Part shown: positions 1 to 6,301 of the stretch, one piece after another
How positions within the stretch are numbered: position 1 is the first letter of the stretch
How the letters are laid out: the number at the start of each line of letters is the position of its first letter
NCBI GenBank assembly: GCA_016871135.1
Contig: VFZQ01000002.1
Coordinates: 1 to 34,469, forward strand
DNA length: 34,469 nucleotides
Source of the DNA: Acidobacteriota bacterium
GTDB lineage: Bacteria > Acidobacteriota > Terriglobia > Bryobacterales > Bryobacteraceae
Direction of reading: 5' to 3'
The notes under the pieces: generated by a model
The model's database searches: none
Told to the model about the DNA's origin: nothing
What the model saw: the letters and a program-made list of their open reading frames with translations, nothing else
Program-made: the position numbers and the translations under genes

Positions 1-574
1 GGACGCGCGGCGCGATGGCTGCGGCGGTGAATTTCGTTGGCCAGCACATCCTTGCCCGTGCCGCTTTCGCCGAGGACCAGCACACTCAAATCGCTGGCGG
101 CGACACGATCGGCCAGTTGAAACAGGTCGCGCATCACGCGGGACGAACCACTCATCGCGCCGAAGTCGCCGTCGCCGGCCAGGCGGCCGCGCAGGCCCGC
201 GACTTCGCGGCGCAGCGACTGACGCTCGACGGCGCGATCGACCACGCTTCGCAGTTCGTCGAGATCGTAGGGCTTGGACAAATAATCGTAAGCGCCGGCC
301 TTAATGGCTTCGACCGCCAGGCGCTCCGAGCCTTGCCCGGTGACCATGATTACGGCCGGCGATTCCGCGCCAGCCAATTCATGAAGAAGAACGACGCCAT
401 CCTCGCCAGGCATGCGGTAATCCAGAAGCACAACGTCAGGGCGCCCCGCGCGAAGTTGCTCGCGCGCTTCGGCCACCGACGCAGCTTCGAGAAGAACGAA
501 CTCGCCATCGAAGGCCCTCCGCAACGCGTAACGCGCGGCCGGTTCGTCGTCGACAATGAGGATCGTGGCGGACA
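1..574 (-). CDS. NtrC-family sigma-54-dependent response regulator (N-terminal part; gene runs off the left edge)
   Basis: Translating the reverse complement from ATG at 574 gives MSATILIVDDEPAARYALRRAFDGEFVLLEAA...GRPDVVLLDYRMPGEDG (receiver domain with phospho-acceptor Asp), then VLVLGESGTGKDVLANEIHRRSHRAAR (AAA+ Walker A of bacterial enhancer-binding proteins). GGAGG lies upstream of the ATG. Confidence 0.93.
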
Positions 575-603
575 TAAGCCCTCCGACGATCCTCTCACAT
601 CGT

Positions 604-996
604 TCAAGGACGGCGGCCACGATAGATGACTGTGGACTTGTGGTTGAAGAGGCCGACGCCCGCGCCGTAGGCGGTAAATCGCAAGAGCCCAACTTGCGGC
701 GCAAGCATGAGCGGGAAGCCGCCGATGAGCGCGCCGTGCGCCGCGCGACGCGCCGGATGACGATCGCGGATGGCAACGGTCATGACGTTCGCCTTGGAGA
801 ACGTCAGATCATTGGCACCTTTTTCGATGGTGATCGTATTGTCATCGGCGGAGACGAAGCGGCCCCAGTGTTTATGACGGTCCATCGACTGGACCATGGT
901 TTGGTGCGAGGGCTCGAGTTGGGCGAGGCGAGCCCATCGATCTTGTTGCGCGAACGCGGGAAGAGCGAGCGCGAGAGTGAGTAGCAGGTGTTTCAT
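604..996 (-). CDS. Small exported protein, paralog 1 of tandem family
   Basis: Signal peptide MKHLLLTLALALPAFAQ; core WARLAQLEPSHQTMVQSMDRHKHWGRFVSADDNTITIEK; Gly/Ala-rich hydrophobic segment; C-terminal STVIYRGRRP. Shared architecture with the upstream neighbours. Confidence 0.85.
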   Translation of the reverse strand: MKHLLLTLALALPAFAQQDRWARLAQLEPSHQTMVQSMDRHKHWGRFVSADDNTITIEKGANDLTFSKANVMTVAIRDRHPARRAAHGALIGGFPLMLAPQVGLLRFTAYGAGVGLFNHKSTVIYRGRRP

Positions 997-1013
997 GGTG
1001 TGGCTCCTTGTTA

Positions 1014-1418
1014 TTACTTGCGATAGACGGGGGTCGTGGTGTTCTGGCTGAGTCCGATGAGCGCGCCGATGCCGGCGACGGCCGGGATCGCGCCAACAGA
1101 GGCACCGTAGGTTGGGATCGCCGCGGCGACACCAATGGCGCCGGCGATGATGGCGCCTTTACGAGCGCTGTGCGAACGCGGCTTCTCCCGAACGAAAACC
1201 ACCTCGACGCGAGACTTCTCAATCGCCTGTTCATCTTTTCGCGTCCTGATGATCAACGCATCCGCTGAATAGGAAACGAGGGCGCCTTCGTAGCGCTTTC
1301 GGTCGCTGGTTTGGACCACTGTTTGTTGCGATTGATCGATCCGGCCGAGTGCGGGCCAGTCGTCCGGCGAGGCGAATGCGCACCTCGTTATGGCTAGCAG
1401 GAGAACAGCGCTTCTCAT
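1014..1418 (-). CDS. Small exported protein, paralog 2 of tandem family
   Basis: Start trimmed to MRSAVLLLAITRCAFAS (ATG at 1418). Core DWPALGRIDQSQQTVVQTSDRKRYEGALVSYSADALIIRT...VEVVFVRE; glycine-rich segment; C-terminal TTPVYRK. Confidence 0.83.
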   Translation of the reverse strand: MRSAVLLLAITRCAFASPDDWPALGRIDQSQQTVVQTSDRKRYEGALVSYSADALIIRTRKDEQAIEKSRVEVVFVREKPRSHSARKGAIIAGAIGVAAAIPTYGASVGAIPAVAGIGALIGLSQNTTTPVYRK

Positions 1419-1825
1419 GGTCGCTGCCTCATGTAAATTCGAACGTGGCGCCGGCTGATCAGCCCAAAGAAAGCTCCGTAGGTCGCCGTCAGAGGGGCTA
1501 ACTTGACGCCTTCTTTCGGCGCCCAGGCCAAGACGGATAACGCGAACACAGATCCGGCGGCGATTACGGCGCCTTTTCTCGCGTTTGTCGCCGAATCCGA
1601 TTTCTTGACGCTTACCCAGTCGATGAGGCCGCGCTCGATCATGTAGCAGCCGGTCGCTGTATCGATAACCAGCGCCGTGTCGGAGACCGACTTGATCGAC
1701 CCTTTCAATCGCTTCCCGTCGAGTGGCTTGACGATCGCCTCCTGTGCCGGGAAAACCTTCCGAAGAGCGTTCCAATCTTCTGCGAACACCGGCGCCATCG
1801 CGGCCAGAAGTATCCACTTCATCAC
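1415..1825 (-). CDS. Small exported protein, paralog 3 of tandem family
   Basis: MMKWILLAAMAPVFAEDWNALRKVFPAQEAIVKPLDGKRLKGSIKSVSDTALVIDT...; C-terminal HVRIYMRQRP. 4-bp overlaps with both neighbours. Confidence 0.85.
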   Translation of the reverse strand: MMKWILLAAMAPVFAEDWNALRKVFPAQEAIVKPLDGKRLKGSIKSVSDTALVIDTATGCYMIERGLIDWVSVKKSDSATNARKGAVIAAGSVFALSVLAWAPKEGVKLAPLTATYGAFFGLISRRHVRIYMRQRP

Positions 1826-2178
1826 CTTGCTCCTTTTCGATAGACCGTTCGATACGCCGGCAGCAGCGCATTCACGCTGGCCGCGATCGGCGTGTAGAAG
1901 TTGGGATTCGCGGTCAACACGGCTGAGGCCATTCCGAGACCGAGGCCGATCGTGTTGGTGCGCACGCCAATGCGCGTCACGACGACGCGAGTGTAGGGAA
2001 CATCGCTCGCCTTTGTGCGCACGACGACGCGGTCACCGTCGACGCCGCCGAAGGTTCCGTGAATCGAGCGGCCGTCGAGCGTCTCGATGCGCACCTGCTG
2101 GCCGGGGCGCAGGCGTTCGACGCTCTTCCACGTCTCGGCGCGCAAGGCGAGCGCGCACAGGAATAGCAGGGTTTTCAT
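1822..2178 (-). CDS. Small exported protein, paralog 4 of tandem family
   Basis: MKTLLFLCALALRAETWKSVERLRPGQQVRIETLDGRSIHGTFGGVDGDRVVVRT...; C-terminal YRTVYRKGAR. 4-bp overlaps with both neighbours. Confidence 0.85.
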   Translation of the reverse strand: MKTLLFLCALALRAETWKSVERLRPGQQVRIETLDGRSIHGTFGGVDGDRVVVRTKASDVPYTRVVVTRIGVRTNTIGLGLGMASAVLTANPNFYTPIAASVNALLPAYRTVYRKGAR

Positions 2179-2441
2179 CGCGCCCCCTTGCGCCGGTAGA
2201 TCGTCTTCATGCCCGGTGTGATCAATTGCACGACCGCGCGGATGCGTTTGACGGTACCCTTCGGCACGACGGTGAGAACTCCGTCGATCAGCAGGCGGAC
2301 TGTGTCGCGATCGGCGCCGAGAAACGCACCGTGCGTGGTAAGACCGAAGTTGAAGTCAATGTAGGTCACCGCGCCTTGCGGGAGTGCGGAGACGGCGTTC
2401 CAGTTGTGCGCGCCGGTCAGGATCGTGAATAGGAGTCTCAT
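2175..2441 (-). CDS. Small exported protein, paralog 5 of tandem family (short form without the glycine-rich segment)
   Basis: Start trimmed to MRLLFTILTGAHNWNAVSALPQGAVTYIDFNFGLTTHGAFLGADRDTVRLL...VKRIRAVVQ followed directly by the family tail GMKTIYRRKGAR. 4-bp overlaps with both neighbours. Confidence 0.8.
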   Translation of the reverse strand: MRLLFTILTGAHNWNAVSALPQGAVTYIDFNFGLTTHGAFLGADRDTVRLLIDGVLTVVPKGTVKRIRAVVQLITPGMKTIYRRKGAR

Positions 2442-2863
2442 CGTTTCACCTCGCTGTAGACGGTTTTGTATCCGGGGAACAGTGCGCCCAAGCCGGCGCC
2501 GATCAGGCCCCATCCGAAGATCGCCGCCGCGACAAAATCGCCGTCGCCGTCGGACGCATTCGCGGCGAGTCCGCCCATCGATCCACCGGCGATCGCGGCG
2601 CCGATCGCCGCGTTCCGCCAGCGGCTGCCGGCGGTTCGCACCGAGACCTTCGAGATATCCTTCTTCGCATGGGAAGAGTCGCCGCTGCCGGTGCGGATGA
2701 CGACGCCGTCGTCACTCGCCGAAATGAACCGGCCCTTGTGTTTGCGCCCGTCGCGAGTGTGGACGTGGGTATCTTGTCCGGGATAGATGCCGCGCATCAG
2801 CACCCAGGAATCGGTTTGCGCAAAGGCTACGGCGGAGATCAACAAGAGTCGGAGCAGCATCAC
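2438..2863 (-). CDS. Small exported protein, paralog 6 of tandem family
   Basis: M(M)LLRLLLISAVAFAQTDSWVLMRGIYPGQDTHVHTRDGRKHKGRFISASDDGVVIRTG...; Gly/Ala-rich segment; C-terminal YKTVYSEVKR. Start is GTG at 2863 or ATG at 2860. Confidence 0.85.
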   Translation of the reverse strand: MMLLRLLLISAVAFAQTDSWVLMRGIYPGQDTHVHTRDGRKHKGRFISASDDGVVIRTGSGDSSHAKKDISKVSVRTAGSRWRNAAIGAAIAGGSMGGLAANASDGDGDFVAAAIFGWGLIGAGLGALFPGYKTVYSEVKR

Positions 2864-3340
2864 CTACCTCCAGGTAACGCCGAATCGGAATGAGGTCAGG
2901 TTCAAGTCGTTGTAGCGGTAGTCGACGTGATGGCGGATTTCGGCGCGGATGCCGAAACGGGGCCTGAGCCAGGCCGTTACGCCGCCGCCGAACTGCCAGA
3001 TGCCTAGGCCGGATCCGTCGCCGCCGAGAAAAATGGCCGGGCCGGTCGAGGCGAAGGGAACAACGCGGCCTGTACCGATCTTTGTTGCGTGATAGGTGAC
3101 CGACGGAGAGAACGCGCCGATGCCACCACCCTCGCCCGGCAGAAAATAGCCGCCCGCGTCAACATTTGTGCCGAGGCCTTTGTAGAACAGGAAGTCGCCA
3201 CCCGTGAACGCGCCTTGAATGCTTTTCGAAAAATATCCGCTCGAGCCGACGAACGGCGTGTAGACCACATATCCCTGCCGGCGAAACTCTTGGGCGTCGC
3301 CGAGCATCATGAAAGTGGCCGCCAGTATCAGTGTTTTCAT
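2864..3340 (-). CDS. Putative outer-membrane beta-barrel-like exported protein
   Basis: Start trimmed to MKTLILAATFMMLGDAQ (ATG at 3340). Alternating hydrophobic/Gly-rich strands, and the end RAEIRHHVDYRYNDLNLTSFRFGVTWR resembles a small OmpA/OmpW-type barrel. Immediately abuts paralog 6. Confidence 0.7.
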   Translation of the reverse strand: MKTLILAATFMMLGDAQEFRRQGYVVYTPFVGSSGYFSKSIQGAFTGGDFLFYKGLGTNVDAGGYFLPGEGGGIGAFSPSVTYHATKIGTGRVVPFASTGPAIFLGGDGSGLGIWQFGGGVTAWLRPRFGIRAEIRHHVDYRYNDLNLTSFRFGVTWR

Positions 3341-3476
3341 GCCAACCAGAGAGGCACGCAGTTGGCCAATCCGAAAATCGTGCGTAGTCAACAGCTTGCG
3401 AATCGCACGCCCGCCAGATTTCCCTGATACCCGCCAAATTCGTATGGCGGCGTTCGGCTGTTAAACTGACGAAGCG

Positions 3477-5123
3477 ATGTCCCTACTCGGCAACGCGCTA
3501 TTGGCGGTTGCGCTCGCTGGCGGTGCTGGCCTCAGTGCTCTGATCGGCGCCGTTATTGTCGAAAAGCCCGGCAAGCGCGCCGCGCATTGGTGGGCGCTGG
3601 CGCTTTTCGTCGCGGCGTTTTGTTGGCACGGCGCGGCGCTTTACGGATTTTTGCAGACCGCGGCGCTTGACGGACGCTCGTTCGACACATCGGTCCCGTT
3701 TCGCGTGATGATCGCTCTGTTCTGTGTCGTGGCCGCGCCGGAACGACCCTGGCGATTTGTGTTTCTTTTGCTAGCCGGCGTACCGTTCGATCCGCCTCGA
3801 TGGGCGGGCTTCGGCACCTTCGCCGCGTTGTTCGCACTGGGCGGATGGATTCAATTTCGCGGATGGCTCGGGCTTTACTTCAGCCGGCGCATCCGGCTGG
3901 TTGGAGCATTGGCGGTTATATCGACGATTTACTTGCTAGCCGTTCGCCGGCTGTCCGATTTTCTTTCGCGCGAGTTCGATGCGTTCGGAGAGTTGCTGGA
4001 AGTCGCGTTGATCTTTGCTGGGGCTCTCGGATGGCTTGCGCTCTATGGTTGGATGACGCGGGCGATGTCGCGACGGACCGCGCTGTACACGGCGTTTGGC
4101 CGGCGTGTAATCGAAGAAGCCGTGCCGATTCTCGATCTTCGCGAACGGGTGCAATTTCTCGCCGAGGGCGTGGCGAAGACGTTTTCGCTGCATCGCTGCA
4201 AGATACGGATTGAAGGGCCCCCAGTGGCGCAGGGCGCGGCCGGGGCGTCTTCCGGAGAATCCTGGTCGCACGAGTTTGCGTTGCGGTACGAAGATCAAAT
4301 TCGTGGGACGCTGTGGGCCGACTGCCATCCGCGCGCGTCGTTGGAAGAAGACGCCGCCGTTCTTGAAGATCTTTGCCGCCAGATCGCGCATTCGATCGAA
4401 GCGTGCCGGTTGGCCGAAGAGAAACTCTCGCTTGAGCGCACGCTGGTCGAGCAAGAGCAACTGGCAACGATGGGTACGCTGGCGGCGACGATCGCACATG
4501 AAGTAAAGAATCCACTTGGGCCGATGAAGACGCTGGCGCAATTGATGGCCGAGGACCCGGAGCTGCCGCCGCGTTGCCACAAAGACCTCGAAATCATGCT
4601 GAGCGAAATCGACCGGCTGAATCGGTGCGTGGAGCAACTGCTTGGCTTTGCGCGACCGCTGCGCAACGCCGACGGAGAGATCGATGTCGCGGCACTTGTC
4701 GACACCGCGATGCGGCTGATGGCGCGCGAGGCGGCGCCGCGGCGGGTCGAACTGCGGCATACTTGTGCGCCGGGGTTGAAGCTACGGGGAAAAGACAGGC
4801 AGGGTGTACAGCAGATACTGCTCAACCTTGTGCTTAACGCGGTCCAGGCGAGCACCGAGGGCGGTATCGTTGTGCTCGATGTGACGGCGAACGGCGATGG
4901 CCTGCGGTTGCGGGTTACCGACGATGGGCCCGGAATTCCGGGGGAGATGCAGCGCCGCGTATTCGATCCATTCTTCACGACCAAGCAGCAGGGCACGGGG
5001 CTGGGACTGGCGATCGTGAGCAAAAACGTGAAGCAGCTGGGCGGCGCGTTGCGGTTGGAAAGCCCGGTGGCCGATGGGCGCGGGACGCGGGTCGTCGTCG
5101 AATTGGGAGCGGAGGCGCGATGA
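3477..5123 (+). CDS. Membrane sensor histidine kinase, NtrB/ZraS-like
   Basis: Multiple N-terminal TM segments, GAF-like region, H-box TIAHEVKNPLGPMKTLAQLM, and HATPase motifs DDGPGIPGEMQRRVFDPFFTTKQQGTGLGLAIVSKNV. Confidence 0.93.
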   Translation: MSLLGNALLAVALAGGAGLSALIGAVIVEKPGKRAAHWWALALFVAAFCWHGAALYGFLQTAALDGRSFDTSVPFRVMIALFCVVAAPERPWRFVFLLLAGVPFDPPRWAGFGTFAALFALGGWIQFRGWLGLYFSRRIRLVGALAVISTIYLLAVRRLSDFLSREFDAFGELLEVALIFAGALGWLALYGWMTRAMSRRTALYTAFGRRVIEEAVPILDLRERVQFLAEGVAKTFSLHRCKIRIEGPPVAQGAAGASSGESWSHEFALRYEDQIRGTLWADCHPRASLEEDAAVLEDLCRQIAHSIEACRLAEEKLSLERTLVEQEQLATMGTLAATIAHEVKNPLGPMKTLAQLMAEDPELPPRCHKDLEIMLSEIDRLNRCVEQLLGFARPLRNADGEIDVAALVDTAMRLMAREAAPRRVELRHTCAPGLKLRGKDRQGVQQILLNLVLNAVQASTEGGIVVLDVTANGDGLRLRVTDDGPGIPGEMQRRVFDPFFTTKQQGTGLGLAIVSKNVKQLGGALRLESPVADGRGTRVVVELGAEAR

Positions 5124-6301
5124 TACGAGCATTGCTACTGGCGGCCTTCGTTGCGCACGCGCAGCAGTTCCCGGCCGACGGCGTACGACGCGCGCGCGCC
5201 GTGATGGACGCAATCTTCAGTCTCGATCACGCGGCGGGCGAAAAGTTGTGCCGCGACTGGATCGCCACCGCACCCGAAGATCCAGGCGGATACGTCTATC
5301 TCGCGCGAACCAAGTGGAGCGAGGAGTTGAGCACGCGGCGTGCGTTGAGCCTCGAACGCTATGCTTCACCCGAGTTCTTCTCCGACGATGAGCGCTACCG
5401 CTTGCCCGTTCCACCGGCTACGGTGAATTCGTTTCGGTCCTTCAACACCGCCGGCATCACGCGAGCGAAGGCAATGCTGGCTCGCAATCCCCGCGACGCC
5501 TGGGCGCTGTTCACGCTCGGCGTGGGCCATCAGAACGAGGCGACGCTAGAGGCGACGTTTCTACACAATTGGTGGACGGCGTTCCGGCAAGGCACAAGCG
5601 CGTATCGCGCGCACGCGCAACTGCGAGACATGCATCAGGGTTTGGTCGATGCGCGCCTGGTACCGAGCGTCTATCGCTACGTCGCCGGCACGGTGCCGTG
5701 GCGAGTACGATGGCTGGCGGCGCTGCTTGGGTTTCGCGGTTCGGCCGAAGGCGGTAGAAAGGATCTTGAAGAAGTCGCCTCCCGAGCGCTGTTGACCAAC
5801 GACGACGCACGCACCGTGCTGGCGCTGATTTATGCGCGCGAAAAGAACTTCACCGATGCGAACCGGCATTTGTCCGACCTACGGCGCCGCTTCCCGCGAA
5901 ACTACATTGTCCATCTCGATCTCGGCAGCATTGCGATGCAAATGAAGAGGTCCGACGAAGCCGCCCGGCTGTTTCGCGAGATTCTCATCGCAATCGAGAG
6001 CAAACAGAACGGTTATGAGCGGCTCGACAGCGCAACGGTTCTGAATCATCTCGGTACGGCCGAGCGCGCCTCACGACGGTTTGAATCGGCGCTGGAGCAG
6101 CACCGCCGCAGTTTAACCGATTCGTCGGCGACGGCTCGGACACGCGCGATCGCACAGCTGGAGACCGGGCGCGTCTACGACTTAATGGGACGGCGCGCCG
6201 AGGCGATCGCTGCCTATCGCCAGGTGCGGAGTATTCCCGAAATGCCAGGCATCGCGCAACAGGCAAGAGCGCACGAGGCGAAGGCGTACAGGGTTCAATA
6301 G
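5120..6301 (+). CDS. Exported TPR-repeat protein
   Basis: Signal peptide MIRALLLAAFVAHAQ. Helical repeats such as ALFTLGVGHQNEA, LGSIAMQMKRSDEAARLFREIL and LETGRVYDLMGRRAEAIAAYRQV. 4-bp overlap with the upstream kinase. Confidence 0.82.
   Translation: MIRALLLAAFVAHAQQFPADGVRRARAVMDAIFSLDHAAGEKLCRDWIATAPEDPGGYVYLARTKWSEELSTRRALSLERYASPEFFSDDERYRLPVPPATVNSFRSFNTAGITRAKAMLARNPRDAWALFTLGVGHQNEATLEATFLHNWWTAFRQGTSAYRAHAQLRDMHQGLVDARLVPSVYRYVAGTVPWRVRWLAALLGFRGSAEGGRKDLEEVASRALLTNDDARTVLALIYAREKNFTDANRHLSDLRRRFPRNYIVHLDLGSIAMQMKRSDEAARLFREILIAIESKQNGYERLDSATVLNHLGTAERASRRFESALEQHRRSLTDSSATARTRAIAQLETGRVYDLMGRRAEAIAAYRQVRSIPEMPGIAQQARAHEAKAYRVQ

Follow-up and report, generated by a model that had tools for sequence, protein, structure and literature searches.

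The stretch of DNA analysed here (the window) is 34,469 nucleotides long and represents the whole of one contig from a 6.46 Mb metagenome-assembled genome of an Acidobacteriota bacterium. Positions 604-2860 of the minus strand carry six co-oriented genes encoding proteins of 88-140 aa, each with a signal peptide (Table 1). The earlier note had placed the end of the array at 2863, which corresponds to a GTG start codon; the likely ATG of copy 6 lies 3 nt further downstream. Read in the direction of transcription, from the gene for a putative outer-membrane beta-barrel (P0007) through copies 6 to 1 and on to the response regulator gene, the intergenic gaps are 3, -4, -4, -1, -4, 17 and 28 nt. 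Because all gaps fall between -4 and +28 nt, a single transcription unit, in which copies 6 to 2 are coupled in translation, is likely.

Table 1. Coordinates of the array, its neighbours and fused relatives in other acidobacterial lineages
Feature	Position	Strand	Description
NtrC-type response regulator (receiver + sigma-54 AAA), last operon gene	1..575	-	PF00072 and PF00158 above cut-off; cut by contig end
Copy 1 (P0001)	604..996	-	130 aa
Copy 2 (P0002)	1014..1418	-	134 aa
Copy 3 (P0003)	1415..1822	-	135 aa
Copy 4 (P0004)	1822..2178	-	118 aa; shortened hairpin (alignment)
Copy 5 (P0005)	2175..2441	-	88 aa; predicted Sm-like barrel and C-terminal strand, without hairpin
Copy 6 (P0006)	2438..2860	-	140 aa; signal peptide, predicted Sm-like barrel, two-helix Gly/Ala hairpin, C-terminal strand
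Putative outer-membrane beta-barrel (P0007), first operon gene	2864..3340	-	158 aa; signal peptide, C-terminal FGVTWR
Palindrome CCGCCA-N8-TGGCGG, candidate regulator site	3431..3450	.	divergent intergenic region
Membrane histidine kinase, divergent from operon	3477..5123	+	HisKA and HATPase_c above cut-off
Exported TPR protein	5120..6301	+	TPR Pfam matches; homologs adjoin kinase in G018 and other genera
Fused relatives	L093:6308-7480, L111:1865-3316, L112:1786-3258, L113:1098-2456		Sm + hairpin + putative C-terminal outer-membrane barrel
Fused relatives	L114:1873-3111, L115:1877-3139, L117:1792-2979, L119:767-2026		Sm + hairpin + putative C-terminal outer-membrane barrel

The earlier note had read these genes as tandem, divergent paralogs of one small exported family, and profile comparisons bear this out. 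A family profile built without window sequences scored copies 1 to 6 at 80, 81, 62, 65, 27 (26.9) and 133 bits, against a maximum of 15.6 bits among 300 shuffles of each copy; the best shuffle of copy 5 reached 10.2 bits. The proposed check for similarity among the mature regions gave the same answer, as leave-one-out profiles made from the other five copies recovered every copy (18.9-80.7 bits; best shuffle 12.6). In pairwise comparisons, 10 of the 15 mature pairs gave z = 9.0-24.8 relative to shuffles, while copy 5 scored z = 6.7 with copy 4 and z = 0.9-2.3 with the remaining four. The sequence pattern originally described is likewise real. Across 32 aligned family sequences W19 and Y135 are invariant and G43 is nearly so; the W lies in the first helix, the core follows an Sm1-like DG(R/K)...G.(f/l) pattern, and the tail reads (T/V)(V/I)Y. 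A Gly/Ala-rich segment is present in five of the six copies, as had been noted, and both the alignment and the AlphaFold model show that copy 5 is the one without it. The window signal peptides end in A-x-A-like motifs, and none of the six has a lipobox Cys at the signal-peptide end.

Searches of Pfam and NCBIfam with the six copies and their relatives returned no family above cut-off, and the literature collection searched yielded no paper on the array family and none pairing the glycine zipper with Acidobacteriota. A profile search of the same genome detected no seventh copy at E < 0.5, and the six-copy alignment contained no conserved stretch for a degenerate search. By sequence comparison, the six genes are diverged members of one undescribed acidobacterial family. 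P0006 also gave sub-threshold matches to the Leptospira families NF047624, NF047433 and NF047503 (NCBIfam, E 0.004-0.04), a hint of spirochaete relatives.

With the family alignment as input, AlphaFold modelled copy 6 at a mean pLDDT of 86.8 as a helix (residues 18-24) followed by five strands (30-35, 40-48, 52-57, 60-65 and 69-76), two further helices (79-99 and 107-126) and a last strand (130-136). In copy 5 the same helix and five strands are predicted, with core pLDDT of 95-98, a last strand at 78-83 and no hairpin. Foldseek searches of the PDB with either model placed Hfq at the top (probability 1.00, TMt about 0.6-0.74, best E about 0.004-0.01). The hallmark of the Sm/LSm fold, an N-terminal helix leading into a five-stranded bent-sheet barrel, is thus present in both predictions, in keeping with the original suggestion of a small Sm/SH3-like barrel, and the two monomers share one predicted fold rather than having unrelated ones. 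At the sequence level Sm/LSm membership was not detected: the best match to PF01423 (E 0.09, one member) fell below cut-off, and the family profile aligned without gaps over 45 residues to Hfq 17-61, covering strands 1-5, at E 0.12-0.13, which is below significance. A profile built from the long fused proteins of other lineages matched LSm/Sm chains only, and weakly. We consider the homology and fold of the family very likely to be correct, and an Sm/LSm-like fold is well supported by the models.

Several known proteins share this predicted architecture in part. The array proteins have in common with Hfq and other Sm/LSm proteins (PDB 6gwk, 5szd, 4noy) the predicted N-terminal helix and five-stranded barrel, the Sm1-like pattern and the gapless profile alignment, but they are exported, do not keep the Hfq RNA-site residues, and have two additions, a hairpin of membrane type and a further strand at the end. 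Rings of the Sm fold are best known for handling RNA. The top structural match to Hfq, along with the basic character of the mature proteins (+5 to +9), could be taken to indicate exported Sm proteins that bind RNA or other nucleic acids as functional relatives of Hfq. This we regard as very improbable. The YKHA of the Hfq RNA site pairs with a-r-a-e in the family consensus, so that Y-K-H is not kept; much of the charge resides at the hairpin flanks and tail; and the signal peptides place the proteins outside the cytoplasm. The barrel also matches CgeA of the Bacillus subtilis spore crust (PDB 9l9d; TMt 0.70, 1.7 A over 60 columns in Foldseek), an example of an Sm-like fold associated not with RNA but with a surface layer, although CgeA is a Gram-positive spore protein with no hairpin in the match, and the likeness is one of structure. 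The C-terminal SH3 domain of RimP (PF17384) gave weak profile matches to 3 of 32 family members (best E 0.00056), but those with listed bit scores were below the curated cut-off, and RimP is a cytoplasmic ribosome-maturation protein.

The last strand is conserved, and in five of the six copies the two-helix Gly/Ala hairpin is inserted between it and the barrel. Hairpin hydropathy reaches 2.1 over 17 residues. Charge is unevenly distributed around the hairpin: the two flanks next to the barrel carry in sum more positive charge than the loop does (means of +3.4 and +2.1 versus -0.7), and this holds for all 31 members that have a hairpin. Were the hairpin seated in the inner membrane and its barrel exported, such a distribution would run counter to the positive-inside rule; the outer membrane is therefore favoured. 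In addition, at least 8 relatives from other acidobacterial lineages have the barrel-hairpin domain fused to a further 230-280 C-terminal residues (Table 1), with OMP-like termini of GFRI, GLRI, ELRF or GIHF. Amphipathic-strand counts exceeded those of shuffles (p < 0.05) in 6 of 9 fused regions and in 0 of 4 control proteins; the count for P0007 was not significant. The fused regions matched no Pfam family, with a weak autotransporter match (E 0.04) as the sole hit. On the strength of the charge pattern and the fusions to probable OMPs, we are moderately confident that the array proteins associate with the outer membrane. Two family domains can also occur in one chain, as in G238; L092:4984-6081 is a single 365-aa frame, with an N-masked stretch inside, that holds two such domains in tandem.

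The same features bear on whether the hairpins might instead line a pore beneath a ring of Sm barrels in the inner membrane. The beta domain of MscS is Sm-like, and an MscS-like channel would accommodate both the joining of an Sm barrel to Gly/Ala-rich helices in the copy 6 model and the hydropathy of the hairpin. Nevertheless, an exported barrel on a hairpin in the inner membrane is at odds with the charge pattern of all 31 members that have a hairpin, relatives are fused to probable OMPs, and copy 5 has no hairpin at all, making a channel-like assembly unlikely.

A further comparison is with SlyB, an outer-membrane lipoprotein of E. coli (PDB 7ojf; PF05433). On our reading of the sequences, SlyB is likewise small and exported, with a small beta domain that houses a Gly/Ala hairpin. 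Membership of the array family in the SlyB family is not claimed: SlyB is a lipoprotein with its hairpin near the N-terminus, whereas the array proteins have no lipobox and their hairpin follows five strands, and the best of 32 family members against the Gly-zipper 2TM family PF05433 scored E 0.098, short of the cut-off, which SlyB itself passes with 31.1 bits against 24.2. None of the Gly-zipper models gave a convincing match to the family members. SlyB, which is controlled by PhoPQ, forms rings in which OMPs may be enclosed (PMC13067283). By analogy, it is the nearest working counterpart of the envelope assembly that we propose below.

Members of the family were found in 36 of 61 genomes in a set of close relatives and in 67 of 297 sampled Acidobacteriota genomes, the window's own genome being counted in each. 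Most carry one or two copies, and the single-copy acidobacterial relatives that the earlier note had mentioned are among them. Tandem arrays of two or three copies, and in one case four, occur in G018, G028, G001, G047, G466, G411, G209, G452 and G219, and six copies form the largest array seen among the sampled genomes. The locus is kept in the sister, same-genus genome G018 (locus L053) in the order regulator, three copies, OMP, kinase, TPR, DeoC and DUF2891. In a phylogenetic tree, copies 2 and 3 group with the G018 copy L053:8550-8951 (support 95/87), copies 1 to 3 form a group with two G018 copies (97/91), and copy 1 is nearest to L053:8957-9373 (95/47). Copy 6 groups with single copies from two other genomes of the genus (97/92), and copies 4 and 5 are sisters (89/80), with copy 5 having the longest branch (3.15); long branches make the placements of copies 5 and 1 less sure. 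Recent local expansion of all six was rejected, as a single clade gave p-AU 0.00036, and since ortholog types are shared with G018, the six copies do not derive from one local expansion.

Measured by dN, evolution of the copies is 2-6 times faster than that of the flanking genes. Relative to G018, dN is 0.58-0.79 for the copies, 0.50 for the OMP gene, and 0.12-0.32 for the regulator, DeoC, DUF2891, kinase and TPR genes. A comparison of dN/dS between copies had been suggested; values were obtained for ortholog pairs, but dS was 1.2-2.1 or not computable, so that synonymous sites are near or beyond saturation and the ratio is not informative on positive selection. The loss of the hairpin from copy 5, its long branch, and the difference in copy number between the two sister genomes are what would be expected of a fast-evolving remnant of tandem duplication with little function, held in place by drift. 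We consider this highly unlikely, as every one of the six reading frames is open and includes a signal peptide, the W, G and Y of the core have been retained, ortholog types persist in two species, and NG86 estimates, where obtainable, put dN below dS (0.58/1.45 and 0.62/1.55, with synonymous sites near saturation).

The genes flanking the array include both halves of a two-component system. The window regulator is truncated and is 82% identical to its counterpart in the sister locus L053, which is complete; with this ortholog taken into account, a receiver, a sigma-54 AAA domain and an HTH are found beside a HisKA/HATPase kinase, the composition of an NtrC-type system. The kinase ortholog in G018 occupies the same place and is 67-69% identical. 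The palindrome in the divergent intergenic region occurs once in the window and not at all in 100 shuffles, and it has a G018 counterpart in the matching place (L053:10354-10373). A possible sigma-54 promoter, GG-N10-GC at 3354-3369 (-), is not claimed, as the motif is as common in the window as expected by chance. The end of this match is 13 nt upstream of the start codon of the OMP gene, and the alignment with G018 shows a counterpart there; were the match a promoter, a nearly leaderless mRNA would be implied. P0007 itself is 47% identical to the product of L053:9815-10264, which weakly matches TIGR04565 OMP_myx_plus (E 0.0018), and a second homolog, L128:3329-3781, gave E 5.6e-5, all such matches being under the curated cut-off.

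The OMP-regulator-kinase-TPR module, or parts of it, recurs in other genera of the bacterial family (L127-L133), usually without a clear Sm-like array; L128, for example, has the module and no clear members of the array family. In L130 a short protein with a AVYLLTGTGIVFVV tail is encoded before the regulator (L130:9064-9315). It appears to be a distant Sm-like relative with weak similarity to RimP (NCBIfam E 0.0048), and its sequence probably represents a second acidobacterial Sm-like family. In a genome from another bacterial family (L091), kinase, regulator and two array-family genes lie in succession. In most relatives the array-family gene is found elsewhere and the kinase is absent, and the link to a two-component system is therefore not general. 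The sensor segment of the kinase had no match across the phylum sample outside the window's own genome. From its position, the flanking NtrC-type system probably controls the array in this genome.

Starting from the homology, operon layout, predicted Sm fold and conserved locus established by computation, we propose that the array encodes diverged Sm-barrel subunits of the envelope, anchored in the outer membrane, hetero-oligomeric together with the neighbouring barrel, and governed by the flanking two-component system, an account to which we give about an even chance. Each mature protein would form a periplasmic Sm-like barrel of an N-terminal helix and five strands, and the Gly/Ala hairpin of the five copies that have one would be packed into the outer membrane in the manner of a Gly zipper. 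The barrels would sit side by side, as in Sm rings, in joint assemblies that contain different copies as well as P0007, the small outer-membrane barrel. The array would be expressed together with the flanking NtrC-type system, which would probably also control it. The assembly would plausibly protect the envelope or stabilise OMPs, working like SlyB, an action suggested by analogy.

Of these elements, mixed assembly is the more tentative. In eukaryotes, different paralogs make up the Sm ring, and it is this biology, with the translational coupling of the copies, that leads us to hypothesise a hetero-oligomer, which we regard as possible rather than probable. Sm rings form through strands 4 and 5, and the extra last strand of the array proteins might block the edge that such rings use. 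Another possible reading is that the copies are independent accessory proteins, each a separate homomeric envelope subunit serving different ligands or conditions. Single-copy relatives are common, and hence a homomeric form must work; the ortholog types are older than the split from G018, and the excess of dN in the copies over the flanking genes fits this account as well. Yet overlapping stop and start codons couple five of the copies, the usual layout for subunits made together, and no ligand pocket was identified. Both species have maintained diverged types separately, as would suit distinct subunits. As G018 carries three copies and other genomes a single one, a complex need not contain six different subunits, and six is not a fixed stoichiometry. 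In its fullest form, the proposed hetero-oligomeric assembly would be a mixed ring of exported Sm-fold paralogs with outer-membrane hairpin anchors, holding or encircling a small beta-barrel under a sigma-54-type two-component switch, and would constitute an envelope counterpart of the eukaryotic Sm/LSm heteromer; this version is speculative, and we think it rather improbable.

An unnamed, widespread acidobacterial family in which a hairpin is threaded into an exported Sm fold, and in which some members are fused to probable outer-membrane barrels, would show the fold put to a second use, as a scaffold in the envelope. The six-copy operon offers a compact system for asking whether bacteria build mixed Sm rings, and a handle on outer-membrane upkeep in Acidobacteriota, a phylum whose envelope biology has been little studied.
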